Below, piece after piece: positions 3-54,863 of a stretch of DNA of 64,000 bases. The notes under the pieces are model-generated. The model was not told where the DNA came from and did no database searches. It saw only the letters and a program-made list of their open reading frames with translations. Each line of letters begins with the position of its first letter. The stretch's first letter is position 1. Made by a program: the position numbers and the translations under genes. Source of the DNA: a virus; IMG/VR virus record IMGVR_UViG_3300010883_000001, positions 81,182 to 145,181 of that record; one strand, 5' to 3'.

Positions 3-335
3 TCTGATATGGTTGATGGATTGATTTTAGCTATGGGATCTGAGTATTTTGGGCCGATTAATTTAGGGAACCCAAATGAGATTACTGTTTCCAAGTTAAC
101 AAATATAGTATTAGAAAAATGTAATGCACGAAATGCTATTAATTATTACCCATTACCTCAGGACGATCCATGCATCAGGAGACCCAACATAAATAAAGCT
201 AAGTGGTTATTGGGGTGGGTACCCAAAGTTAGTCTAGATGAAGGTCTAGATAGGACGATACAATACTTTAGAGGTCTTTTACGTGTAGAACCTCAAGAAC
301 CATCATATAATTTAAAAATTGGTTATGAAAAATGA
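3..335 (+). CDS. UDP-glucuronate decarboxylase (UDP-xylose synthase)-like, 3' part only
   Basis: The reading frame is open to the window edge, so the N-terminus with the Rossmann fold and the YxxxK site is missing. The remaining ~110 residues read as the C-terminus of an extended SDR: SDMVDGLILAM, then NLGNPNEITVSKL, then DDPCIRRPNINKAKWLLGW and a final DEGLDRTIQYFR. The DDP-x-x-R-x-P-(D/N)-I-x-KAK-x-x-LGW block is the signature I know from UXS enzymes, which convert UDP-glucuronate to UDP-xylose. A related dTDP-glucose dehydratase is the alternative. The stop overlaps the ATG of the polymerase gene (ATGA), so it shares that operon. Confidence 0.75.
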   Translation, partial: SDMVDGLILAMGSEYFGPINLGNPNEITVSKLTNIVLEKCNARNAINYYPLPQDDPCIRRPNINKAKWLLGWVPKVSLDEGLDRTIQYFRGLLRVEPQEPSYNLKIGYEK

Positions 336-3300
336 AAAAAACACCCTCAAGATTCGTAGGTCTTCATGCACATTCTGGATTTTCTACATTTGATGGATTA
401 GGATACCCTCAAGAACATATTGATTATGTAAAATCAAATGGAATGGACTGTTGGGCACTTACTGACCATGGTCACATGAATGGTTTTGCACATGCTTATT
501 TACATGCTGAAAAATTAAAAAAGCTTGGTGAGAATTTTAAATTTATTCCCGGGTGTGAAATGTATGTTCATCCGGATTTAGATGTATGGAGTCTAGACTA
601 CAAGCTAGCCCGGGCGGCAAAGCGAGGTGATCATGAGTCGATCACAAAACTTAGACAGCAAAGGGAGTCCATAGTAACCCCTATTCTTGCAGTAACCGAT
701 CGCGATGATGAGATTATAGATGTTGATATAAATGAAGGAGGTATGACTGTAGAGAATGAGGAGGAGACTAAGTCTGCAAAATTTTATGATCCCGTTAAAC
801 GCCGGCATCATTTAGTTGTACTACCTAGAACTAGTGAGGGTTTAAAACGTTTATTTTCATTGGTCTCCAAAGGTTATCTTGAGGGATTTTATAGATTTCC
901 GCGTGTAGATTATAAGATGTTAAAAGAGGCCGCTAAAGGTGGTCATTTAATGCTTAGTACGGCATGCCTAGGAGGCCCCGTCGCATATGAAGTATTCAGG
1001 CATTTACAAGAAGTTTCATTTAATAATCTTAATGCTTCTCTTTTAGATGATAGATCATTAATGGAGAAGACAATCCTTGGTGTTGGAAATGCATATGGAT
1101 CACTGTGTGACGCAGTAGGGCGTGAGAACGTTATGCTTGAGTTACAGTTCAATAAACTCCCAGCTCAACATTTGGTGAATAGAGCTATACTTGAGTATTC
1201 TAGAAGAAACAATTTATCAGATCAATTAATAGTAACTTGCGACTCGCACTATGCAAATCCAGAACATTGGAAAGAGAGAGAATTATATAAGAAGTTAGGA
1301 TGGTTAAATTATCGTGATTATGATCCTTCTTCGTTACCACAAAGTCGCGACGATTTAGAGTGTGAATTATATCCGAAAAACGAAACACAGGTCTGGGATT
1401 CATATACAAATACATCTTCTGGGTATGATTTTTATAATGATGAAGAGATATGTAGCGCTATTGAGAGAACGCATGATATAGCACACGAAATGATAGGCGA
1501 TATCACAGCCGATAAAAAAATGAAGCTGCCGTCATATATAGTACCTCAAGGCACTGATGAAAACACGGCACTTCTAGAAGCTTGTAAAAAAGGATTAATA
1601 GAGAAGGGCTTACATGCTAACAATGAATATATAGACCGCTTAAAGCTAGAGCTCTCTGTAATACGCAGTAAGGATTTTTCTAGATATTTTTTGACGATGA
1701 AGTCAATTCTTGATATTGCAAGAGAACGCATGTTGATAGGACCGGGTCGAGGATCCGCAGCTGGTAGTCTGGTTGCATATGTACTTGGAATAACAAACGT
1801 TGATCCTATAGAATATGGATTATTGTTTGAAAGATTTTTATCTGTCCATCGTGAGGGCGCACCAGACATTGATACTGACGTAGGCGATAGGGATCTTCTG
1901 ATTGATCTACTCAAGGCAAATTTTGGTGATCAGAATGTTGTTCCTATTTCAAATTATAACACTTTTAAATTGAAATCATTAGTAAAAGATATATCACGTT
2001 TTTATGGTATACCCTTTGACGAAGTAAATAAGGCACTGGCACCGGTTGAGAATGACGTAAAAAAAGTAGTCTTTACAAAGGGTACCGACAAAAACCTTTT
2101 CGTGTTATTGTATGAAGATGCCATTGCACACTCGGCATCATTTCGAAGTTTTATTGAAAAGTATCCTGAGGTAGCTGAACCAATCGAAATTTTATTTAAG
2201 CAAAATAAGTCCTTGGGTCGACATGCTGGCGGAGTAATAATCAGTGAAAATATTCCGGAGCAGATGCCCTTGATACTCGCAAGGGGTGAGCTACAGACCC
2301 CTTGGGTCGAAGGGATGCATTATAAACATCTGGAAGAGTTTGGGTGGATTAAATTTGATCTTCTTGGATTAGAAACCCTACGAATAATCCAACGTTGTAT
2401 AGAGCTAGTTTTGAAGAGGCATGAGGGAAATGAGAACCCGACTTTTGTTGATGTGAAGAAATGGTTTGACCAAAACATGGATCCGAAAGTCATAGATTTT
2501 AATGATGAAGAAGTGTTTCGAAACATATATCATCAAGGAAAATGGGCTGGAATATTTCAGGCTACGCAACGAGGCGCACAGGCATTTTTTAAGAAAGGAA
2601 AGCCTTTGAGTATTATTGATGTTGCTACGCTTACATCAATTTATCGCCCAGGTCCGTTAAGTGCTAATGTGCATAAGATATATTTGGGATCAAAGGACAA
2701 TCCAGAAGATATAGATTATCAACATGATCTTATTAAACAGGTTCTGGAACCGACATATGGTGCGATAATCTTTCAAGAGCAAGTTATGGAGTTATGCAAC
2801 GTTGTAGCCGGTTTCCCTCAGGAAGACTGTGATAAGGTTCGTAGAACAATCATGAAGAGATCTGCGTCTAAGGCAGATGCTATGAAAGCCGAGGCTGAAG
2901 CTTTAAAGAACAGATTTGTTGAGGGTGCTGTCACAAATGGCGTGGCACAGGATGTTGCTAGCGAATTATATGAGAAAATCTTATTTTTCTCCGGATATGG
3001 TTTTAATAAATCTCATGCCGTATCTTACGCAGTTGATTCTTACTATTGCGCATGGTTGATGCACTACTATGAGGAGGAATGGCTGTGTGCTTATCTTGAG
3101 GCTATGTCAAGTACTCCGGATAAGTTGGCAAAAGCATCTAGCGAGATTAAAAAGCTGGGATATAAGACGGTACCTCTAGACATAAATTATGCTGAAAAGA
3201 CCTGGACAATATTAGACGGGAAGAAATTTATGCCATCATTCTTATCATGCAAAGGTATAGGACTAGCCGCAATCGACGAGATTATGAAAAATAGACCGTA

Positions 3301-3931
3301 TAGCTCAGTTGATGATTTACTATGGGATGAATCAGGTAAGTGGCGACATTCAAAGTTTAATAAGCGTGCGTTAGGCTCACTTATTCGTGTTTGTGCATTT
3401 GGGTCCATGGGCTTAGTTGGCGAAAGGAAGGCATTTTCTTCATATAAGCAGATGCACGAAATACTAATAGATAAAAACCAAGATATAAAAAAGTCAACAA
3501 GGAAAGATCCATGGAGAGGTAAAAAAGCAATGACTGAATTGCTGGTTGAATCAGATACTTCAAGCGAATGGACATCTTATGAGCTAGCAAAGAATAGTAT
3601 TGAGCTGTTGGGATCATTTAGTTCGAAATTACTAGTGGATGACGAGTTACAAAAAGAGCTACAAAAAAGAGGCATTCACACAATTGATGAATATCACTCA
3701 AAAGACCTATATTGGTTTATTGTAAAGAAGGCAATCCCAAAGTTGACAAAGAATAAAAAGCCGTATCTACTATTGACAATATCTGGTACTGAAGGATCGG
3801 AAAGTCGGATGTTCTACTGGGGATGGAATGGAAACACAGATATATCAGAGTTTTCAGTTTGTGTGGCAGAAATTGACAGGAGCGATTTTGGATTTTCAAC
3901 TAGATCCGGAAAGATAAAGGTAATTAGATAA
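332..3931 (+). CDS. dnaE: DNA polymerase III alpha subunit (DnaE-type replicative polymerase)
   Basis: This 1199-residue protein is a C-family polymerase, slightly longer than the ~1160 residues usual for bacterial DnaE. An N-terminal PHP domain starts with LHAHSGFSTFDG (residues 11-22) and TDHGHMNG. The PHP domain carries a long charged insertion after residue ~85. The palm holds LIGPGRGSAAGS (~469-480) and the metal-binding PDIDTD, with D512 and D514 matching E. coli D401 and D403. Later come SLGRHAGGVIIS, IYRPGPL, IFQEQVMELC and the fingers motif YGFNKSHAVSYA (~888). The C-terminal OB/tail region is short. It probably replicates the phage genome. It overlaps its neighbours by 1-4 bases on both sides and sits inside the sugar-nucleotide/modification operon. 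Confidence 0.95.
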   Translation: MKKTPSRFVGLHAHSGFSTFDGLGYPQEHIDYVKSNGMDCWALTDHGHMNGFAHAYLHAEKLKKLGENFKFIPGCEMYVHPDLDVWSLDYKLARAAKRGDHESITKLRQQRESIVTPILAVTDRDDEIIDVDINEGGMTVENEEETKSAKFYDPVKRRHHLVVLPRTSEGLKRLFSLVSKGYLEGFYRFPRVDYKMLKEAAKGGHLMLSTACLGGPVAYEVFRHLQEVSFNNLNASLLDDRSLMEKTILGVGNAYGSLCDAVGRENVMLELQFNKLPAQHLVNRAILEYSRRNNLSDQLIVTCDSHYANPEHWKERELYKKLGWLNYRDYDPSSLPQSRDDLECELYPKNETQVWDSYTNTSSGYDFYNDEEICSAIERTHDIAHEMIGDITADKKMKLPSYIVPQGTDENTALLEACKKGLIEKGLHANNEYIDRLKLELSVIRSKDFSRYFLTMKSILDIARERMLIGPGRGSAAGSLVAYVLGITNVDPIEYGLLFERFLSVHREGAPDIDTDVGDRDLLIDLLKANFGDQNVVPISNYNTFKLKSLVKDISRFYGIPFDEVNKALAPVENDVKKVVFTKGTDKNLFVLLYEDAIAHSASFRSFIEKYPEVAEPIEILFKQNKSLGRHAGGVIISENIPEQMPLILARGELQTPWVEGMHYKHLEEFGWIKFDLLGLETLRIIQRCIELVLKRHEGNENPTFVDVKKWFDQNMDPKVIDFNDEEVFRNIYHQGKWAGIFQATQRGAQAFFKKGKPLSIIDVATLTSIYRPGPLSANVHKIYLGSKDNPEDIDYQHDLIKQVLEPTYGAIIFQEQVMELCNVVAGFPQEDCDKVRRTIMKRSASKADAMKAEAEALKNRFVEGAVTNGVAQDVASELYEKILFFSGYGFNKSHAVSYAVDSYYCAWLMHYYEEEWLCAYLEAMSSTPDKLAKASSEIKKLGYKTVPLDINYAEKTWTILDGKKFMPSFLSCKGIGLAAIDEIMKNRPYSSVDDLLWDESGKWRHSKFNKRALGSLIRVCAFGSMGLVGERKAFSSYKQMHEILIDKNQDIKKSTRKDPWRGKKAMTELLVESDTSSEWTSYELAKNSIELLGSFSSKLLVDDELQKELQKRGIHTIDEYHSKDLYWFIVKKAIPKLTKNKKPYLLLTISGTEGSESRMFYWGWNGNTDISEFSVCVAEIDRSDFGFSTRSGKIKVIR

Positions 3932-24060: not shown

Positions 24061-25927
<1,867 letters not shown>

Positions 25928-25945
25928 TGTATTGTCAGAAGATGT

Positions 25946-25960
25946 TAGCACATAGTGCTA
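25946..25960 (+). promoter_or_regulatory. Small hairpin in the leader of the 25983 gene
   Basis: TAGCAC, loop ATA, GTGCTA forms a perfect 6-bp stem between the promoter and the AGGAGG ribosome site. It may protect the transcript 5' end. Confidence 0.35.
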
Positions 25961-25982
25961 TTAACTAGAATAGGAGGGCTTT

Positions 25983-26234
25983 ATGCCTGCCACGATCGAA
26001 GCAACTGAAGAAGAAAGCCATTTGACTAGGGAAACCCTATCGACAATGTCAGATAGGGAGTTGAATGATTCATTGTCAGACATAACCAGAAAAATTAGAA
26101 TGTTTAGAAAAAACGGAAAGGATACGAAGGTATTTGAGGTAGAGTACTGTTACCTAGAAGACGAAAGTCAGCGGCGCGCTACATATGGTCGAAATTTTGT
26201 GTCGAGAAACTTGTATAAGAAGAGAACTCGATAA
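25983..26234 (+). CDS. Small protein upstream of sigma factor, unknown
   Basis: The 83-residue charged protein contains SDRELNDSLSDITRKIRMF and ends in FVSRNLYKKRTR. It starts behind a strong AGGAGG and is the first gene behind the extended -10 promoter. It could modify sigma or RNA polymerase, but nothing in the sequence shows that. Confidence 0.6.
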   Translation: MPATIEATEEESHLTRETLSTMSDRELNDSLSDITRKIRMFRKNGKDTKVFEVEYCYLEDESQRRATYGRNFVSRNLYKKRTR

Positions 26235-26260
26235 ACCTAAATTAATTCCCGGAGAGTTTA

Positions 26261-27034
26261 ATGTCTGATATGTTACAACATTTTTTTAAAGAAGTGGGAA
26301 AATCGCCGCTTCTAACCAGAGAAGAAGAAGTTGAATTATCAAAAAGAATAGAAAAGGGTGACGCCAAGGCAAGGGATAGGATGATTAGATCTAATCTTCG
26401 CCTTGCAATTAGCATTGCAAAAAAATATCAAAACAAAGGCTGTTCATTGGAGGATTTAATTCAAGAATCCAGTATTGGTCTTATGAAAGCAGTAGAAAGA
26501 TTTGACTGGAGGAAGGGTTTTAAATTTTCTACTTATGCGTGTTGGTGGATTCGACAATCTGTTAGGCGTCATATTGCCAGTCATTCAAGCTCTATTAAGC
26601 TTCCTACATACGCAAAGAATATGTTATGGAAATCGAGGCAGATGTCGCTTGAGTATGAAAAAGAGTTTGGTGTAAAACCTACAAAAAAAGAGGTTGCTGA
26701 TCTATTAGGGGTATCCGTCTCTACAATTGACTCCATATTTGCGTGTTCCGGCCCTACAGATTCACTTGATAGAAATCTGAGCTATCGTTCTAGGCAAACA
26801 TCAAGAACATTAGCTGAAGTTCTAGTTGACGAAAATGCCTCTGGTGTTGATGATAAACTTGACAGTGCAACGCTTTTATCGTCAATTCGTGATGCTTTAG
26901 ACAGTCTTTCGGATCGCGAACAAAAAATTGTACGAATGAGATTTGGAATATCTGAGGATGATAATAATATTAAAAATTATCCTTTAAAAAAATCAGAGTT
27001 TGATAAAATTAAGTCTGCATCAGGAGTTAGTTGA
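26261..27034 (+). CDS. Sigma70-family factor lacking region 4.2
   Basis: The 257-residue protein has regions 1.2 to 4.1 of a primary-type or RpoH/RpoS-type sigma. LLTREEEVELSKRIEKGD is region 1.2, IRSNLRLAISIAKKYQNKG and LEDLIQESSIGLMKAVERF are 2.1-2.2, FKFSTYACWWIRQSVRRHI is 2.3-2.4 (conserved aromatics for melting and -10 reading), FGVKPTKKEVADLLGVS is region 3, and SLSDREQKIVRMRFGI is 4.1. The usual helix-turn-helix of 4.2 is replaced by a short tail ending SASGVS. Such a factor should rely on the -10 and extended -10. The next gene encodes a separate helix-turn-helix. Confidence 0.88.
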   Translation: MSDMLQHFFKEVGKSPLLTREEEVELSKRIEKGDAKARDRMIRSNLRLAISIAKKYQNKGCSLEDLIQESSIGLMKAVERFDWRKGFKFSTYACWWIRQSVRRHIASHSSSIKLPTYAKNMLWKSRQMSLEYEKEFGVKPTKKEVADLLGVSVSTIDSIFACSGPTDSLDRNLSYRSRQTSRTLAEVLVDENASGVDDKLDSATLLSSIRDALDSLSDREQKIVRMRFGISEDDNNIKNYPLKKSEFDKIKSASGVS

Positions 27035-27036
27035 AA

Positions 27037-27357
27037 ATGACAATGCCAAAAGGTTTCAAGAGTGAGCACGGATATGCGACGGTTACATCTGTAGAGGGGG
27101 CCCTAGATTATCGTAGGATTGCGGAAAAGATGACTAGCGAGGGTTACAAAATGAACCACTCCACAGCTAGGAATATCTTTTTGTCTGCAATGAGAAAACT
27201 TGCGTCTCACGTGGTAGATACTTATAGAATAGATAGCTCATCTGAGATAGTTGACAGGACTGCAAAAGATCCAAGGTTTCAAGAAGGTATTTTTGAGATT
27301 ATGGATGAAATTGAAGCTGATAAAAAGACGTCGACACAAGGTGAGTGTGGTATTTAA
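27037..27357 (+). CDS. Helix-turn-helix protein resembling sigma region 4
   Basis: I take ATG 27037, ten bases after AGGAG. A TTG at 27031 is closer to the SD than is usual. The 106-residue protein contains LDYRRIAEKMTSEGYKMNHS followed by TARNIFLSAMRKLASHV. This resembles region 4.2 (TLEEIA..LG.s..rvrqi...AL.KL). It directly follows the sigma gene that lacks this part. It may act in trans as a -35 reader, or as a separate regulator. Confidence 0.6.
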   Translation: MTMPKGFKSEHGYATVTSVEGALDYRRIAEKMTSEGYKMNHSTARNIFLSAMRKLASHVVDTYRIDSSSEIVDRTAKDPRFQEGIFEIMDEIEADKKTSTQGECGI

Positions 27358-27382
27358 TCTTTTAATTTTAAGGAGTAGTTAA

Positions 27383-27751
27383 ATGGGAGCTGGTATACCT
27401 TTTGAGTTTTTTTTGGCTCGAAGAAAATATTCTGTTGAAGATGTCGTAAGAATTGCTGGGGCATTTTCTTATGAAGAGCTTGTAACATTTTGTAGGGAGT
27501 CGCAAATCCGTCCCCCTGGTCGGACTGACAAAGTTTTGAGTGCAATAAGCGCCTTCGCTACGTCTGAGAATGCCTTATCCGCAGGAAACACCCCGGTGCC
27601 AAAGGTAAGAAAGTTGAAAGTGAACAATAATCATGAAAAAGTAACTAATGAACCAACCACGGTTGAGCCGGCGGTTACTATCGAGAAAGAGGCTCCACCA
27701 AAGTCGTCAACGCCTCGTGTTCCTCGTCACCGGCGCACAAAGAAATCATAA
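27383..27751 (+). CDS. Unknown protein with basic C-terminal tail
   Basis: The 122-residue protein has an N-terminal helical domain (YSVEDVVRIAGAFSYEELVT, then RPPGRTDKVLSAISAF), reminiscent of SAP-like DNA-binding domains but unproven. A Pro/Thr linker and an Arg/Lys-rich end (RVPRHRRTKKS) follow. AAGGAG lies upstream. Confidence 0.5.
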   Translation: MGAGIPFEFFLARRKYSVEDVVRIAGAFSYEELVTFCRESQIRPPGRTDKVLSAISAFATSENALSAGNTPVPKVRKLKVNNNHEKVTNEPTTVEPAVTIEKEAPPKSSTPRVPRHRRTKKS

Positions 27752-27754
27752 CAT

Positions 27755-27928
27755 ATGTTATTTCCACGCTGGCTTTGGGGTACATGTGTATTTCTTAATG
27801 TTCTTTTGACTTCATTCAATTTATACATTGGAAATAGGGGATATGCTGTTATGGCAACATTAACTGCATTTGTTTGTTTATTTAATTTTATTTCCGTGGG
27901 GAAGAGAGAAGAAGAGAATGGCACTTAG
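27755..27928 (+). CDS. Small two-helix membrane protein (57 aa)
   Basis: ATG 27755 opens 57 codons: WLWGTCVFLNVLLTSFNLYI and YAVMATLTAFVCLFNFISV are two likely membrane helices, followed by a charged tail. It fills the gap before def and overlaps its start by 11 bases. No clear ribosome site is seen. Confidence 0.45.
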   Translation: MLFPRWLWGTCVFLNVLLTSFNLYIGNRGYAVMATLTAFVCLFNFISVGKREEENGT

Positions 27929-28586
27929 AGATATTCGTCAATATCCGGATAAGGTTTTAAGAGAGAGATCTGAGGATTTAGATCTGAGTTCTGATTTAGC
28001 ATGTCAGATTAGAGATGACCTGATAGATACATTATCACTTGTTTCCGGGGCCGGCTTAGCCGCGCCCCAGATTGGGTTTTCGTATAATGCGGTGATTATA
28101 AGACCTTCAATTATGAAAATTCATAATCCTGATCCTAGTGAGAAAAATCCGGATTTTTGGTTTCTTGGAAACCCAGTAATAACGGTCTTATCTGATTCTG
28201 AGAAGATTGTATGGAAAGAAGCATGTTTATCCGTACCCGTCGTTTCGGGTCCGGTCGCAAGAGAGTCATATATTAAGATTAATTACGAAAATATAAAGGG
28301 TGAAAAGAAAGAGGTTACGCTTGGGCCACCTATGTCAATGGTTATGCAACATGAGGTGGATCATCTAGAAGGCAAGCTTTATATTGATAGAGTTCAAGGT
28401 GTTTCCAAGTACATGATAAATAAAAAATTAAAGAAAGCATTTCGAAAGGAAAAGAAGAATCACGAGCAACTAGTTGAAACAATGGCCTCAATTTCCAGAC
28501 CTCAATTAACTAAGTTACATAATGAAAAAAGAAAGAGCCTTCGGGAAAAGAGAAAGAATAAAAAGAAGTCGAGAAGTAAGGGATAA
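27918..28586 (+). CDS. def: Peptide deformylase with basic C-terminal extension
   Basis: ATG 27918, behind GAAGAGA, gives 222 residues. All three PDF motifs are present: GAGLAAPQIG, EACLSVP (Ala in place of the usual Gly) and QHEVDHLEGKLYIDR with the HExxH zinc site. The last ~55 residues are a Lys/Arg-rich tail not found in bacterial PDF and may bind ribosomes or nucleic acid. It removes the formyl group from nascent proteins. Phage PDFs are known from marine phages. It is followed directly by dnaJ. Confidence 0.92.
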   Translation: MALRDIRQYPDKVLRERSEDLDLSSDLACQIRDDLIDTLSLVSGAGLAAPQIGFSYNAVIIRPSIMKIHNPDPSEKNPDFWFLGNPVITVLSDSEKIVWKEACLSVPVVSGPVARESYIKINYENIKGEKKEVTLGPPMSMVMQHEVDHLEGKLYIDRVQGVSKYMINKKLKKAFRKEKKNHEQLVETMASISRPQLTKLHNEKRKSLREKRKNKKKSRSKG

Positions 28587-28588
28587 AA

Positions 28589-29620
28589 ATGTCACATGAT
28601 CCTTACTATAGAGAGTTAGGTTTAAAATCCTCAGCATCAGACTCTGATATTAAAAAAGCTTATCGCAAGCTTGCAATGAAATATCATCCTGATAAGAATG
28701 AAGGCAATAAAGCGGCTGTAGAAAAATTTAAGAAAATTTCTCATGCATATGCAGTCCTAACTGGAAAAGAATCACCTGAAAATGATGCATCAAACTTTAA
28801 TCCATTTGCTCATGGCACTGGATTAGATGATATATTTAAAGAGTTTTTTGGTGGTTTCAGCACCGGTTTTGCAAGAGACTTTTCAGATTTTGAGAGGCCC
28901 CAGACCAGACCACGCCGCGATCTAGATATTCATAGCAACATAAATATTGATTTTCTAGATGCAGTTAGAGGTTATGACAGCGTAATAAGTGTAAATACAA
29001 ATAAAACATGTAACCCATGCCAAGGTACTGGTTCTGATGGCGGTCATTTAGTTTCATGTGAAACGTGTGACGGAACAGGGTCTAGCGTAATACGTAGGGG
29101 TCTTATGGTGATTCGGCAGGCATGTCCGTCCTGCGCTGGTAGTGGTCGTCAACCGGCATCATTATGTAGAATATGCTCTGGCCGTGGTTTTGGTACCGGC
29201 CTAACAGAGGTTCGTGTTACGATTCCTCCAGGAGTAGACTCAGGAAATATTTTAAGAATGGTTGGGCTTGGAAACGAATTCTTAGGATCTGTTGGAGATC
29301 TTTTTCTTCAAATTGGTGTTGGAGATTCATCGGAGTTTTCTAGGGATGGATATAATATTTCTTCAACATATGATTTGAAGTATACTGATTTTATCCTGGG
29401 CGCAAGAGAGAATATAAAAACAATATACGGTAATATCTCAGTAACAATCCCCCCAAATACTAGGCCTGACAGTAAATTAAAAATCTCAGGTAAAGGTATC
29501 ACAAACCCATCTACGGGTGCAAGAGGGGATCATTTTTTAAGGTTAAAAGTATCCGTACCTTCGCACATAACAGATAAGCAACGAAGCGCTATCATGGTGT
29601 TAAGAGGTTTAGGGTTGTAA
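28589..29620 (+). CDS. dnaJ: DnaJ (Hsp40) co-chaperone
   Basis: The 343-residue type I DnaJ has an N-terminal J domain with His33-Pro34-Asp35 in KYHPDK, a short Gly/Phe region (FFGGFSTGFARDF), four CxxCxGxG-type zinc modules (CNPCQGTG, CETCDGTG, CPSCAGSG, CRICSGRG) and the two-lobed C-terminal substrate domain. No DnaK is encoded in the window, so it must use the host DnaK. With GroEL, Hsp20 and SlyD it completes an unusual folding set. Confidence 0.93.
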   Translation: MSHDPYYRELGLKSSASDSDIKKAYRKLAMKYHPDKNEGNKAAVEKFKKISHAYAVLTGKESPENDASNFNPFAHGTGLDDIFKEFFGGFSTGFARDFSDFERPQTRPRRDLDIHSNINIDFLDAVRGYDSVISVNTNKTCNPCQGTGSDGGHLVSCETCDGTGSSVIRRGLMVIRQACPSCAGSGRQPASLCRICSGRGFGTGLTEVRVTIPPGVDSGNILRMVGLGNEFLGSVGDLFLQIGVGDSSEFSRDGYNISSTYDLKYTDFILGARENIKTIYGNISVTIPPNTRPDSKLKISGKGITNPSTGARGDHFLRLKVSVPSHITDKQRSAIMVLRGLGL

Positions 29621-29627
29621 TTATATT

Positions 29628-29657
29628 CGTGCAATTTAGTTTTTTCTGTGGTATAAT
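29628..29657 (+). promoter_or_regulatory. Phage promoter, CGTGCAA / TGGTATAAT type
   Basis: CGTGCAA at 29628-29634 lies exactly 17 bases before TATAAT at 29652-29657, which is preceded by TGTGG. It drives the 29684 gene. The upstream ATTCGTGCAA is identical to that of the 40124 promoter. Confidence 0.75.
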
Positions 29658-29683
29658 ATTACTATAAACAGGGAGGATTTAAT

Positions 29684-29941
29684 ATGTTCTTGACCACCTT
29701 AATTTTTCTACTAATCTTATTTGGTGGAATTCCTGCATTAAAATATTTTACGGCATCATTTATAATTAGTTTTGCAGTGGGAATAGGTGCTTGTGCTCTC
29801 TTATTTGCAGGATCTACTATCGGTTATTATGTGGGTGGGGTTACTGGCTTGTGGACATCAATATTTCTATCCTCAGGTGTTGTCCTAGGTACCCTGGTTC
29901 TTATTATTGTTTTTAGCTGGACAAAGTGTTCCTGTGAGTAA
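29684..29941 (+). CDS. Small integral membrane protein
   Basis: The 85-residue protein consists almost entirely of three predicted membrane helices (for example TTLIFLLILFGGIPALKYF and FIISFAVGIGACALLFAGS) and ends in WTKCSCE. It has its own promoter and an AGGGAGG ribosome site. Function is unknown. A superinfection or holin-like role is possible. Confidence 0.65.
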   Translation: MFLTTLIFLLILFGGIPALKYFTASFIISFAVGIGACALLFAGSTIGYYVGGVTGLWTSIFLSSGVVLGTLVLIIVFSWTKCSCE

Positions 29942-30230
29942 GGATTCAATCGCTACTTTAGTAGAGCTTTTGATGCTAGAGTCAGGTATTGTACCTTTAT
30001 CTGCCGGTGATATATACCCTAAGATAGTTGATGCTAGTTGGTCAATTGATAAAAGATTCAGTTCTATCTCTAAAGAAGAGAAGAGAAAGATGAAAAGAAA
30101 ATTTCGAAAACTTTGGAGAAAAAAAGCAAAATCATCCGGGAGAGATTTTTCAAAACTGTCTCGTACTACAAAAAGACAATTAGTAAGATCTTTATTTTTA
30201 GACATGGCCAAAGAAAGTTTTTTTGATTGA
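29934..30230 (+). CDS. Basic protein with C-terminal tag-like helix
   Basis: I use GTG 29934, which overlaps the previous stop. A TTG at 29907 is also possible. The ~98-residue product has a Lys/Arg-rich middle (EEKRKMKRKFRKLWRKKAK) and ends with RQLVRSLFLDMAKESFFD, similar to the LRxLIRxxIxE tag. It may bind nucleic acid. Confidence 0.5.
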   Translation: MSKDSIATLVELLMLESGIVPLSAGDIYPKIVDASWSIDKRFSSISKEEKRKMKRKFRKLWRKKAKSSGRDFSKLSRTTKRQLVRSLFLDMAKESFFD

Positions 30231-30298
30231 TTGTTTAAGTGTGGAAAAATAGCGTATATTTATGTATGTTATTTTCTCAATAAACGAGGTCATACTTT

Positions 30299-30598
30299 AT
30301 GAAAGAAATAGAAATACCACTATCTGTCCTTAAGGCCATGTCACGACTCCCAATGTCAAGAGAAGAGATTGATGAGGTTGTTGACATGAAACATACAGAT
30401 CTAATAATTGAATATGGGCTAGATTCTCTTCAGGCTCATATGGCATGTACATGGACTTATACCGAGGCCCAACGCCAGCATTCCCAAGATATGTCTATGT
30501 CACTTGCGGACGCACCAGAAAGAAAACCATATGGTGCGCATACAAAAACATACCCCCTCAAGGAATCGTTAAGAAGATTAATCAAAAAGTACAGGTAA
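30299..30598 (+). CDS. Small protein with C-terminal LRRLIKKY helix
   Basis: The 99-residue protein contains an N-terminal helical part (LSVLKAMSRLPMSREEIDEV) and ends with KESLRRLIKKYR, again like the shared tag. ACGAGG precedes the start. Function is unknown. Confidence 0.55.
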   Translation: MKEIEIPLSVLKAMSRLPMSREEIDEVVDMKHTDLIIEYGLDSLQAHMACTWTYTEAQRQHSQDMSMSLADAPERKPYGAHTKTYPLKESLRRLIKKYR

Positions 30599-30633
30599 GC
30601 TGTACATATTATATTTGTTTTATAAAATTTTCT

Positions 30634-31242
30634 ATGATTAAGCTTCATGTAAAGCTACCGCACAGATTTAATCTAGCGCTTAGTGGTGGCCCTGATTCTA
30701 TGTCTGCACTTGATTTTTTTTGTAGAGGCCACCGCGACTTTAAGTGTATATACTTCAACCATAAAACAAAGCATTCAGTAGAGGCAGTTCAGCACGTTGT
30801 AAAAGAGTGTAAGAATAGGGGTGTTGAATTAATTATAAGTGATATTGATACAACATTAATAGACAAGGCAAAAAGCCTGGAGGCTGAGTGGAGAAAGCAG
30901 AGAATAGCATTTTTTAATTCTTTTAATGAAGATATAATAACCGCACATAATTTAAACGATGTTGTTGAGTGGTGGATGTTTACTTCGCTGCACGGAAACC
31001 CTAGACTAATACCTACTAGAAACAAAAATATATTGAGACCCTTTTTGACAACTTCAAAAGATGATTTTCTTAAGTGGAATAAAAAAAATGATGTTAAGAC
31101 AGTTTTAGATCCGGGGAATACAAATAGAGACTTTATGCGTACAATAATAAGGCATGATATGATGCCACATGTATTAAAAATTAACCCGGGTATCGGAAAG
31201 GTTTTGAGGAAGAAAATCATGAGAATTAAAAATGAAGCTTAG
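30634..31242 (+). CDS. TilS-like N-type ATP pyrophosphatase (tRNA-Ile lysidine synthase-like)
   Basis: ATG 30634 gives 202 residues, about the length of the TilS catalytic domain alone. LALSGGPDSMSAL (Ser17-Ser22) is the PP-loop, YFNHKTKHS the second strand, and ITAHNLNDVVEWWMF followed by ILRPFL matches TilS's HHADDQ-x-E and RPLL segments. Full TilS adds C-terminal tRNA-binding domains, which are absent here. TilS changes the CAU anticodon of tRNA-Ile2 to read AUA. A CAT-anticodon tRNA with Ile2-like features is encoded at 59555, which supports the call. No good RBS is seen. Confidence 0.72.
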   Translation: MIKLHVKLPHRFNLALSGGPDSMSALDFFCRGHRDFKCIYFNHKTKHSVEAVQHVVKECKNRGVELIISDIDTTLIDKAKSLEAEWRKQRIAFFNSFNEDIITAHNLNDVVEWWMFTSLHGNPRLIPTRNKNILRPFLTTSKDDFLKWNKKNDVKTVLDPGNTNRDFMRTIIRHDMMPHVLKINPGIGKVLRKKIMRIKNEA

Positions 31243-32260
31243 ACAAGCGTTATGTTTTGATGATGTTCTTTTAGAACCTAGGTTTTCAAGTATTTGTTCA
31301 AGATCAGATATATCTTTAGAGTTTAAGCTAAGAAATTTATCTCATACTTTCTCTCTTCCTGTATTTTCTAGCCCAATGGATACAGTTACGGAAGACAAGA
31401 TGGCTTATGGGATGTATAGGGCTGGTGGGCTAGGTATTATCCACAGATATAATACTATAGATGAACAGGTGGTGCATGTGAATTCAGTGTGTGCCTCAAA
31501 GACAGCACACGTTGGCGCGGCCATAGGGGTTTCAGGTGACTTTGAAGAAAGGGCATGTGCTGTATACGATGCCGGTGCCCGCATAATTTGTATAGATGTT
31601 GCTCATGGCCACCATATGCTAGTAAAAGAAGCACTCAGTTGCCTGCGGACTACGTTCGGCAACAACATTCATATAATGGCTGGCAATGTTGCTACTATAG
31701 ATGGGTTTAATGACTTGGCTGATTGGGGCGCTGATAGTATTCGAGTTGGTATAGGCGGAGGATCAATATGTTCAACTAGAATACAAACAGGTCATGGTAT
31801 ACCCACTTTACAAAGCGTGTTTGACTGTGCTAGATCTGATAGGCATGTTTCTATTATTGCTGATGGAGGGATTCGGAGTAGTGGTGATATCGTAAAGTGT
31901 CTGGCCGCCGGCGCCGATGCTGTTATATGTGGTTCACTATTAGGTAGGACGTCCGCTGCCCCGGGTGCACGATTTGTCGACGCTTCGGGAAATGAATATA
32001 AACAATACAGAGGAATGGCCTCTATAGAGGCCCAGATTGACTGGAGGGGTCATTCATCATCGGTTGAAGGGGTAACATCAAACGTTATGATACAAGGCAC
32101 GTTAGATGATGTCTTGGCAGCACTTGAGAGAGGCATAAGATCAGGTTTATCATATAGCGGGTGTACAACGTTAGATAAATTTAGGGCTAGCGCAAGGTTT
32201 ATAAACTCATCGACACTTTCGTCTGCTGAAAACGATACTCATATTTTTACACGTAAATGA
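31232..32260 (+). CDS. IMP dehydrogenase / GMP reductase family enzyme
   Basis: The 342-residue TIM-barrel protein lacks CBS domains, as GMP reductases do. It has TFDDVLL-type [13 protein letters not shown] at the start, [23 protein letters not shown], the catalytic loop [18 protein letters not shown] with the nucleophile Cys, and [27 protein letters not shown] is nearer to IMPDH (YRGMGS) than to GMPR (FYGMSS). I therefore cannot decide between the two activities. Either would adjust guanine nucleotide pools. It overlaps the TilS-like gene by 11 bases. Confidence 0.88.
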
Positions 32261-40123: not shown

Positions 40124-40153
40124 CGTGCAAATTTTATTAAGTTATGGTATAAT
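40124..40153 (+). promoter_or_regulatory. Phage promoter, CGTGCAA / TGGTATAAT type
   Basis: CGTGCAA at 40124-40130 is followed by 17 bases and TATAAT at 40148-40153, preceded by TATGG. Of the 33 bases from ATTCGTGCAA to TATAAT, both conserved blocks and the length equal those of the 29628 promoter, while the spacer differs. It drives the 40178 gene cluster. Confidence 0.75.
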
Positions 40154-40177: not shown

Positions 40178-40450
40178 ATGAATGACTTGCAGTTAGGATC
40201 TGAGGTTTGGTTTGTTTCTCTTTCTGAGAAGCAACCTAGGCAAGGTATAGTTCTTTCTATATATGAAAATGATGCGATCACCCCCTCAGCTCAGCTCCAA
40301 TGTATCCACTCGGGTGCATATTATGTAGTCCCAAAGTCTTGGATTGGGGATACTCGAAAATCAGCAAAGTGCCTTCGCATAGATAATGATATTGATTTTC
40401 GAAAACGCGTTAATAAAATAATAACTTCAAAGGGAGAAAAAGATGAATAA
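40178..40450 (+). CDS. Small KOW-like protein, unknown
   Basis: The 90-residue protein contains LGSEVWFVSLSEKQPRQGIV and ends in charged residues. The first half looks like a small beta barrel. It is first behind the extended -10 promoter and overlaps the next gene. Confidence 0.55.
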   Translation: MNDLQLGSEVWFVSLSEKQPRQGIVLSIYENDAITPSAQLQCIHSGAYYVVPKSWIGDTRKSAKCLRIDNDIDFRKRVNKIITSKGEKDE

Positions 40451-53384: not shown

Positions 53385-54863
53385 ATGGAAATTTTAGAAC
53401 ACCAATCAAGAGATATATTGCTTAAGTGGGCAATAGATTATGAAGAAGCCAGAATTTCTAGTACCGGTGCATTAGTTGTTCAGACCGGTATACATACCGG
53501 CAGATCTGCCGGCGCAAAAAGAATTGTTTTTGATGAGATAACAAAAGATAAAGTCAATTGGAATGATAATAAAAAAATTATGCCAAATGACTTTCATGAG
53601 ATAAAATCTTCAATGTTAACCCGCCTAGATGTCGGTGAGGGTACGGTTTTTAAACAAGAGCTTTTTGCTAATAATGATACAAAGAACCAGCTTAAGTTGA
53701 ACGTTTATACTACGTTAGCATGGCACTCAATATTTTCGAAAAATATGTTTGTAGAAAAATCTGCTCTAGGGTTTCATGATAGCGACGCAGATGAGTGGGA
53801 TCTATATTATTTTCATGATCATCTTTCATCACCGAGTGTCTTAATTTCATTTACGGAAAAAGCAATATTGATATCTGGTACCATGTATGCTGGTGAAATG
53901 AAAAAATCTGTCTTTACTGTCTTAAATTTCTGTTTACCTAATAAAGGCGTTTTACCAATGCATTGCTCTGTCAATGTTAGCAAGGCTGGAGATTCTAGTG
54001 CAATATTTTTTGGTCTTTCCGGAACGGGAAAGACGACCCTAAGTTCTGACGTTAGGCGTGATCTTGTAGGCGATGATGAACATTCATGGTCGGATACTGG
54101 ATTATATAATTTTGAAGGGGGTTGTTACGCAAAAGTTATTAACCTGTCTAAGAGTGATGAACCGCAAATTTGGGATGCCGTAAATTCAGATTTTTCTATA
54201 CTTGAAAATGTTGTTTTTGGTAATGACGATACTCCTAATTTTGATGATGACTCCATTACGCAGAACACGCGTGGATCTTATCCAATATCATCTATAAGTA
54301 ATTTCGTCGAATCGTGTTCTGCCGGCCACCCTACGAACGTTATTATGTTGACATGTGATGCATTTGGTGTACTCCCTCCCGTTTCGAAGCTTTCATATGA
54401 TGATGCAATCTCTCATTTTCTTCTAGGGTATACGGCCAAGGTTGCTGGTACTGAAGTAGGAATAGTTGAGCCAGAAGTTACATTTTCTTATTGTTATGGT
54501 GCTCCCTTTATGCCATTATCTCCAGGTGTATATGGTGATCTATTACGAGATAAATTAGTGGAACATAATCCCAATTGCTGGTTGGTTAATACCGGATGGA
54601 CAGGCGGGCCTTACGGTGTGGGATCTAGGATGCCAATATCACTTACAAGAAGTATAATTGATGCTATTCATGATGGGACGTTGGCTAATTGTTCAACTAC
54701 CCTACATGACTATACGGGTTTACGGATCCCCGTGGGTCACGATTTAATAGAGCAAAATCTATTATTTCCGGAAAAGACGTGGAATGATAAAGAGATGTAT
54801 ATTGCGGAGGCAGCTGGCCTTATGACATTATTTGATCATAAGCGCCACTTTTTGAGAATCTAA
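53385..54863 (+). CDS. pckA: ATP-dependent phosphoenolpyruvate carboxykinase
   Basis: The 492-residue protein is somewhat shorter than the ~540 residues of E. coli PckA, but its active site looks complete. GIHTGRSAGAKR holds the substrate Arg, GEMKKSVFTVLNF the metal-binding Lys pair region, LPMHCSVNV the metal His, GLSGTGKTTLS (210-220) the kinase-1a P-loop, GDDEHSW the kinase-2 acidic pair and NTRGSYPI the gamma-phosphate Arg. GTEVGIVEPEVTFSYCYG and NTGWTGG follow. It makes PEP, CO2 and ADP from oxaloacetate and ATP. This is very unusual in a phage. Its codon use is as AT-rich as its neighbours, so it is long resident rather than newly acquired. Confidence 0.93.
   Translation: MEILEHQSRDILLKWAIDYEEARISSTGALVVQTGIHTGRSAGAKRIVFDEITKDKVNWNDNKKIMPNDFHEIKSSMLTRLDVGEGTVFKQELFANNDTKNQLKLNVYTTLAWHSIFSKNMFVEKSALGFHDSDADEWDLYYFHDHLSSPSVLISFTEKAILISGTMYAGEMKKSVFTVLNFCLPNKGVLPMHCSVNVSKAGDSSAIFFGLSGTGKTTLSSDVRRDLVGDDEHSWSDTGLYNFEGGCYAKVINLSKSDEPQIWDAVNSDFSILENVVFGNDDTPNFDDDSITQNTRGSYPISSISNFVESCSAGHPTNVIMLTCDAFGVLPPVSKLSYDDAISHFLLGYTAKVAGTEVGIVEPEVTFSYCYGAPFMPLSPGVYGDLLRDKLVEHNPNCWLVNTGWTGGPYGVGSRMPISLTRSIIDAIHDGTLANCSTTLHDYTGLRIPVGHDLIEQNLLFPEKTWNDKEMYIAEAAGLMTLFDHKRHFLRI

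Follow-up and report, generated by a model that had tools for sequence, protein, structure and literature searches.

Primary-type sigma factors normally consist of one chain. The locus described here, in which a sigma factor gene stops short of region 4.2 and is followed at once by a gene for a small helix-turn-helix (HTH) protein, raises the question of whether a phage has divided such a factor between two genes and placed the reading of the -35 element on the second. The locus is located within a stretch of 64,000 nucleotides, designated the window, that corresponds to positions 81182-145181 of the 145 kb IMG/VR record IMGVR_UViG_3300010883_000001. One region-2 sigma factor was found in the whole virus record, and it is the one encoded at this locus.

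The sigma core and the adjacent helix-turn-helix gene

The sigma core gene (26261-27034, + strand) encodes a protein of 257 amino acids that contains regions 1.2, 2, 3 and 4.1, lacks region 4.2, and ends in a short tail for which a C-terminal helix is predicted. The protein belongs to the sigma70 family by homology of region 2 (Pfam Sigma70_r2, 2.1e-21) and region 1.2 (Sigma70_r1_2, 2.7e-14), and a weak match to region 3 was also obtained. Its structural match to RpoS, SigA and RpoD reached a VIA-align Z of 19.9, with 35-37% identity to the solved RpoD and RpoS in the structural alignment. The core therefore resembles the group 1/2 sigma70 factors (RpoD, RpoS) from region 1.2 to 4.1, but unlike them it has no 4.2 in the polypeptide. 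An earlier note on this DNA had described the protein as having regions 1.2-4.1 without the 4.2 HTH, and two lines of evidence bore this out. The Pfam region 4 model was matched at positions 1-18 of 50 only, with the match ending at residue 232, and the structural alignment of the AlphaFold model with E. coli sigma70 holoenzymes mostly ended at residue 234, equivalent to sigma70 569 and inside 4.1. Only about 27 residues remain after RMRFGI, the end of 4.1, and a second HTH, and with it a complete region 4, is absent from the protein. The tail itself (window 26950-27034) is non-random; the pattern [FY]P[IV]T..E...L, predicted to form a short helix, is common to many relatives. Decay of the sigma gene into a pseudogene was rejected because residues of region 2 and 4.1 are invariant over 85 sequences.

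The HTH gene (27037-27357, + strand) begins 2 nt past the sigma stop codon and encodes a protein of 106 amino acids that we regard as a separate subunit and the putative reader of the -35 element. The ATG at 27037 was chosen as the start over the TTG at 27031 because the relatives have a common M-x-M-P start. In the AlphaFold model, helices 25-34 and 41-62 form the HTH and are followed by a C-terminal helical pair. Few parts of the protein are as conserved as the recognition helix, with an invariant R45 and near-invariant H41, N46 and K54, and the C-terminal helices are also conserved and carry a DPxFQ motif. Searches of Pfam and PHROG returned no significant family for the HTH protein of the window, a search of the INPHARED phages returned no relative, and no gp33-named family was among the PHROG matches listed for 85 members of the HTH family.

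The earlier note had further stated that the HTH resembles region 4.2. The HTH itself was upheld, with pLDDT values above 90 across most of it, but the likeness to 4.2 did not rise above controls. The best hhalign alignment of the HTH profile fell on 4.2 in register (P about 0.03-0.04), yet its score of 18.3 was below the maximum for shuffled profiles (18.6), and the reversed profile scored 17.7. Sigma70_r4_2 was matched by 6/85 members of the HTH family, equal to the count for an unrelated family. Foldseek gave no match with the HTH model, and a second structural aligner placed region 4 of RpoS (Z 2.3, weak) below a small-terminase HTH (Z 3.8); sequence and fold searches of the PDB with the HTH protein likewise gave no conclusive match to 4.2. 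In the 4.2-aligned register, H41, R45 and N46 coincide with R584, R588 and Q589, which contact the -35 element in sigma70. Mutual information between the sigma and HTH proteins was not concentrated in 4.1, in an alignment with little power for this purpose (Neff 55). The profile alignment is suggestive of a resemblance to 4.2 in register only, and the HTH protein may be either a 4.2 that has diverged or an HTH of other origin that came to fill its role.

Pairing of the two genes and their natural fusion

Searches of viral contigs with either protein as the query yielded 160 loci, including the window's own copy. The sigma and HTH genes were adjacent, on the same strand and with sigma first in 159/160 loci, and the lone exception (L160) encodes an intact sigma with a canonical 4.2. 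Because the pair is kept in 104 distinct relatives, this layout is far beyond chance. As a control set, we used 53 phage sigma loci (L181-L233) that were fetched with the protein of a fused relative, L180, described below, together with 12 sigma loci from a phage collection (L161-L172). An HTH gene was located nearby in 0/53 and 0/12 of these loci, respectively, and the control sigmas that were read through to the C terminus retain 4.2. Given that no HTH gene stands beside a 4.2-bearing control sigma and that 159 loci are paired, in this sample the HTH gene is found wherever 4.2 has been lost, and nowhere else, without exception. The alternative of a single gene with a frameshift or a sequencing error was rejected because the break is kept in the 104 distinct pairs, many of which overlap or have genes between the two.

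Among 85 non-redundant pairs, the two genes overlap in 35/85 and are separated by 0-40 nt in 33/85; the spacing is approximately 200-280 nt in 16, several with a small ORF between the genes, and 490 nt in 1. This close spacing points to coupled, stoichiometric expression of the sigma and HTH proteins. The earlier note had proposed that the phage uses one core with or without the -35 reader, for instance early and late in infection. Genes that mostly overlap or abut argue for joint use, and the promoters that were found carry both elements, so this switch is left unsupported. In one locus an ORF resembling a GIY-YIG homing endonuclease (L373:2258-2968) lies exactly between the sigma and HTH genes, and elements of this type could have helped to split the sigma gene.

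The HTH profile matched three loci when it was run against contigs of bacterial genomes. One of these, L180, is a contig of a Flavobacteriales metagenome-assembled genome (MAG) on which the two parts form one uninterrupted ORF of 357 amino acids, with the sigma regions up to 4.1 followed by the HTH domain. In this one relative, the HTH domain occupies the exact place of 4.2, C-terminal to 4.1, and therefore the HTH can act as the C-terminal domain of this sigma. The closest relatives of L180 (L179, L369 and L372) are all split, and the fusion is probably secondary. The evidence for it comes from this single assembled MAG contig, and two additional viral scans returned no further fused relatives.

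The pair is accompanied by two further genes. A small gene (25983-26234, + strand) that precedes sigma in the operon encodes a conserved CYLxxE motif and was found in 59/84 split loci and in no control. The gene directly after the HTH gene (27383-27751, + strand) encodes a protein with the sequence FFLARRKY and a weak resemblance to the SAP domain. It was found in 72/79 split loci, also follows the fused ORF of L180, and was present in no control. Its product may be a third subunit or a further partner of the pair.

A GTGYAA promoter linked to the gene pair

The promoter of the sigma operon lies at 25898-25927 on the + strand and consists of CGTGTAA (25898-25904), a spacer of 17 nt that ends in TGG, and TATAAT (25922-25927). 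Two promoters of the same type, each with CGTGCAA, a 17-nt spacer and TATAAT, were located on the + strand at 29628-29657, upstream of the gene at 29684, and at 40124-40153, upstream of the gene at 40178. All three perfect promoters have TGG just before the -10 element. The CGTGYAA promoters named in the earlier note held only as part of this composite. CGTGYAA alone occurs in the window at chance level (9 found, 8.8 expected), whereas CGTGYAA followed by TATAAT at exactly 17 nt occurs in 3 perfect + strand copies against approximately 0.014 expected per spacer, an estimate based on 18 CGTGYAA and 228 TATAAT words counted over the two strands of the 145 kb genome. As there are only three perfect copies, the regulon may be small, or other promoters in the phage's own genome may be divergent.

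The same composite was found across the relatives. With at most one mismatch allowed, CGTGYAA-N17/18-TATAAT had 48 copies with a 17-nt spacer and 30 with an 18-nt spacer on the sense strand of 84 split loci; no copies were found antisense, and 0-3 were found at other spacers. Shuffled -35 words gave a mean of 1.6 matches, compared to 77 for the real composite. The 53 control loci contained none on the sense strand and 2 antisense. Variants of the TTGACA-type -35 element of host sigma70 promoters were not enriched near the sigma operons. The clades were given the working labels marine and freshwater from the grouping of contigs in this analysis, not from sample records. Of 68 marine loci, 42 have the composite in the 400 nt that precede sigma, and in a divergent freshwater clade GTGYAA stands 18 nt from a less strict -10 (20 sense, 0 antisense).

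When contigs were chosen by the promoter pattern alone, 7/50 encoded the HTH protein, and the same 7 encoded the sigma. The remaining 43/50 were without the pair; many of these contigs are fragments, and some chance matches are expected. One contig without sigma and without HTH carries eight CGTGYAA-N15/16-GGTATAAT copies in 7 kb (L236:1955-8882), and is probably a fragment or a repeat.

A proposed two-subunit sigma factor and its relation to known systems

The reading that we favor, with a probability of roughly 0.78, is that the product of the locus is an obligate phage sigma factor of two subunits, the core for the -10 element and the HTH protein for a dedicated -35 element. The idea of a sigma in two pieces, with the second taking the place of 4.2, was first proposed in the earlier note and is supported by strict co-occurrence of the two genes, mutual exclusion of the HTH gene and 4.2, the fusion in L180, and a -35 element that is private to these phages and canonically spaced. 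The larger protein would bind the host RNA polymerase and read TATAAT, often with a TGn extension. Region 4 of the core stops after helices 1-2, and the small HTH protein would dock on or beside the truncated 4.1 at the beta flap, where it would supply the absent -35 contact and read (C)GTGYAA, set 17-18 nt ahead of the -10 element. An HTH in place of 4.2 would leave out host-type TTGACA promoters and select phage promoters, among them the sigma operon's own. A GTGYAA-type promoter at that operon would imply positive feedback, with first expression of the sigma dependent on another promoter or on upstream read-through.

The alternative that fares best, although we consider it improbable, is that the HTH protein is a MotA-like activator that binds GTGYAA and recruits RNA polymerase with host sigma70, while the truncated phage sigma serves promoters with a -10 element only. 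Middle promoters of T4 likewise have a phage box ahead of a sigma70-type -10 element that is often TGn-extended (PMC2988021), and the HTH profile matches 4.2 no better than shuffled profiles do; both are consistent with such an activator. However, the HTH protein is strictly paired with a 4.2-less sigma, is absent beside intact sigmas, and is fused to sigma in L180. The spacing also differs. In the T4 MotA/AsiA system, the contact of host sigma70 at -35 gives way to a MotA box whose centre is at -30, 13 bp upstream of the -10 (PMC2988021), whereas the element described here is at the -35 position, 17-18 nt from the -10. Both systems would replace the -35 contact with a phage DNA-binding protein, predicted as such here, and keep a normal -10 element, but MotA acts with AsiA-remodelled host sigma70 and the present phages encode their own sigma without 4.2.

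A T4-like arrangement is less probable still. The core would then need no partner at -10 promoters, and the small protein would be a gp33-like co-activator or clamp tether that binds the flap and does not read DNA. T4 gp55/gp33 is explicitly named a split sigma, and gp33, a protein of similar size (112 amino acids), replaces sigma domain 4 on RNA polymerase (PMC2988020). Like the locus described here, it combines a phage sigma-family core with a small separate protein, and the HTH protein has conserved C-terminal helices (DPxFQ) with which it could bind a partner of this kind. In contrast, gp33 reads no DNA sequence and T4 late promoters are without a -35 element (PMC2988020), whereas the promoters of the present loci carry a sharp, conserved GTGYAA at 17-18 nt and the recognition helix is among the best conserved parts of the HTH protein. 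In addition, gp33 cannot be recognised as a sigma homologue and genes 33 and 55 lie far apart in T4, while the present genes are adjacent and, unlike in the gp55/gp33 arrangement, the sigma retains regions 1.2 to 4.1.

It is similarly improbable that some other factor, of host or phage, uses the GTGYAA promoters and that their link to the pair reflects the common ancestry of one phage group. Although all loci are from related phages, the element is common to marine and freshwater clades with HTH proteins mostly <50% identical to that of the window, is absent from the sense strand of control phages, and enriches for the sigma/HTH pair when contigs are chosen by promoter only.

The two-subunit reading also differs from the SigO-RsoA system of Bacillus subtilis. 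Both comprise two separately encoded subunits, but the split in SigO-RsoA separates domain 2 from domain 4 (PMC8103513), whereas the cut described here is inside domain 4, between 4.1 and 4.2, and does not place domains 2 and 4 on separate proteins. A primary-type sigma of the phage's own, the cut in domain 4 and a dedicated -35 element at canonical spacing thus set the present system apart from T4, SigO-RsoA and MotA/AsiA. A search of open-access published papers on split, two-subunit and bipartite sigma factors returned SigO-RsoA and T4 gp55/gp33 and not this group. With somewhat less confidence than in the two-subunit reading itself, we consider it likely that the locus represents a large, undescribed lineage of environmental phages with a heterodimeric sigma cut inside domain 4 and a separate -35 subunit that reads GTGYAA, in which the protein encoded downstream may complete a three-part complex and one member is fused.

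A sigma that is naturally broken inside domain 4 suggests that recognition of the -35 element can reside in a separate subunit open to exchange, and the system brings with it a ready-made promoter code for testing this idea. For T4, the question has been raised of why phage sigmas that are split do not also occur as fusions (PMC2988020). The present loci bear on this question, as split and fused forms occur here among close relatives. The composite element would also make promoter calling possible in >100 uncultured marine and freshwater phages.

The surroundings of the operon were also recorded. Genes similar to those for GroEL, peptide deformylase, DnaJ, TilS and GuaB lie around the sigma operon (window 24252-32260), and GroEL and deformylase genes flank the sigma/HTH pair in several relatives as well. 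Elsewhere in the window are a gene for a phage DNA polymerase of the bacterial Pol III alpha type (332-3928) and one for an ATP-type phosphoenolpyruvate carboxykinase (53385-54863; Pfam 3e-171), which is unusual for a phage.
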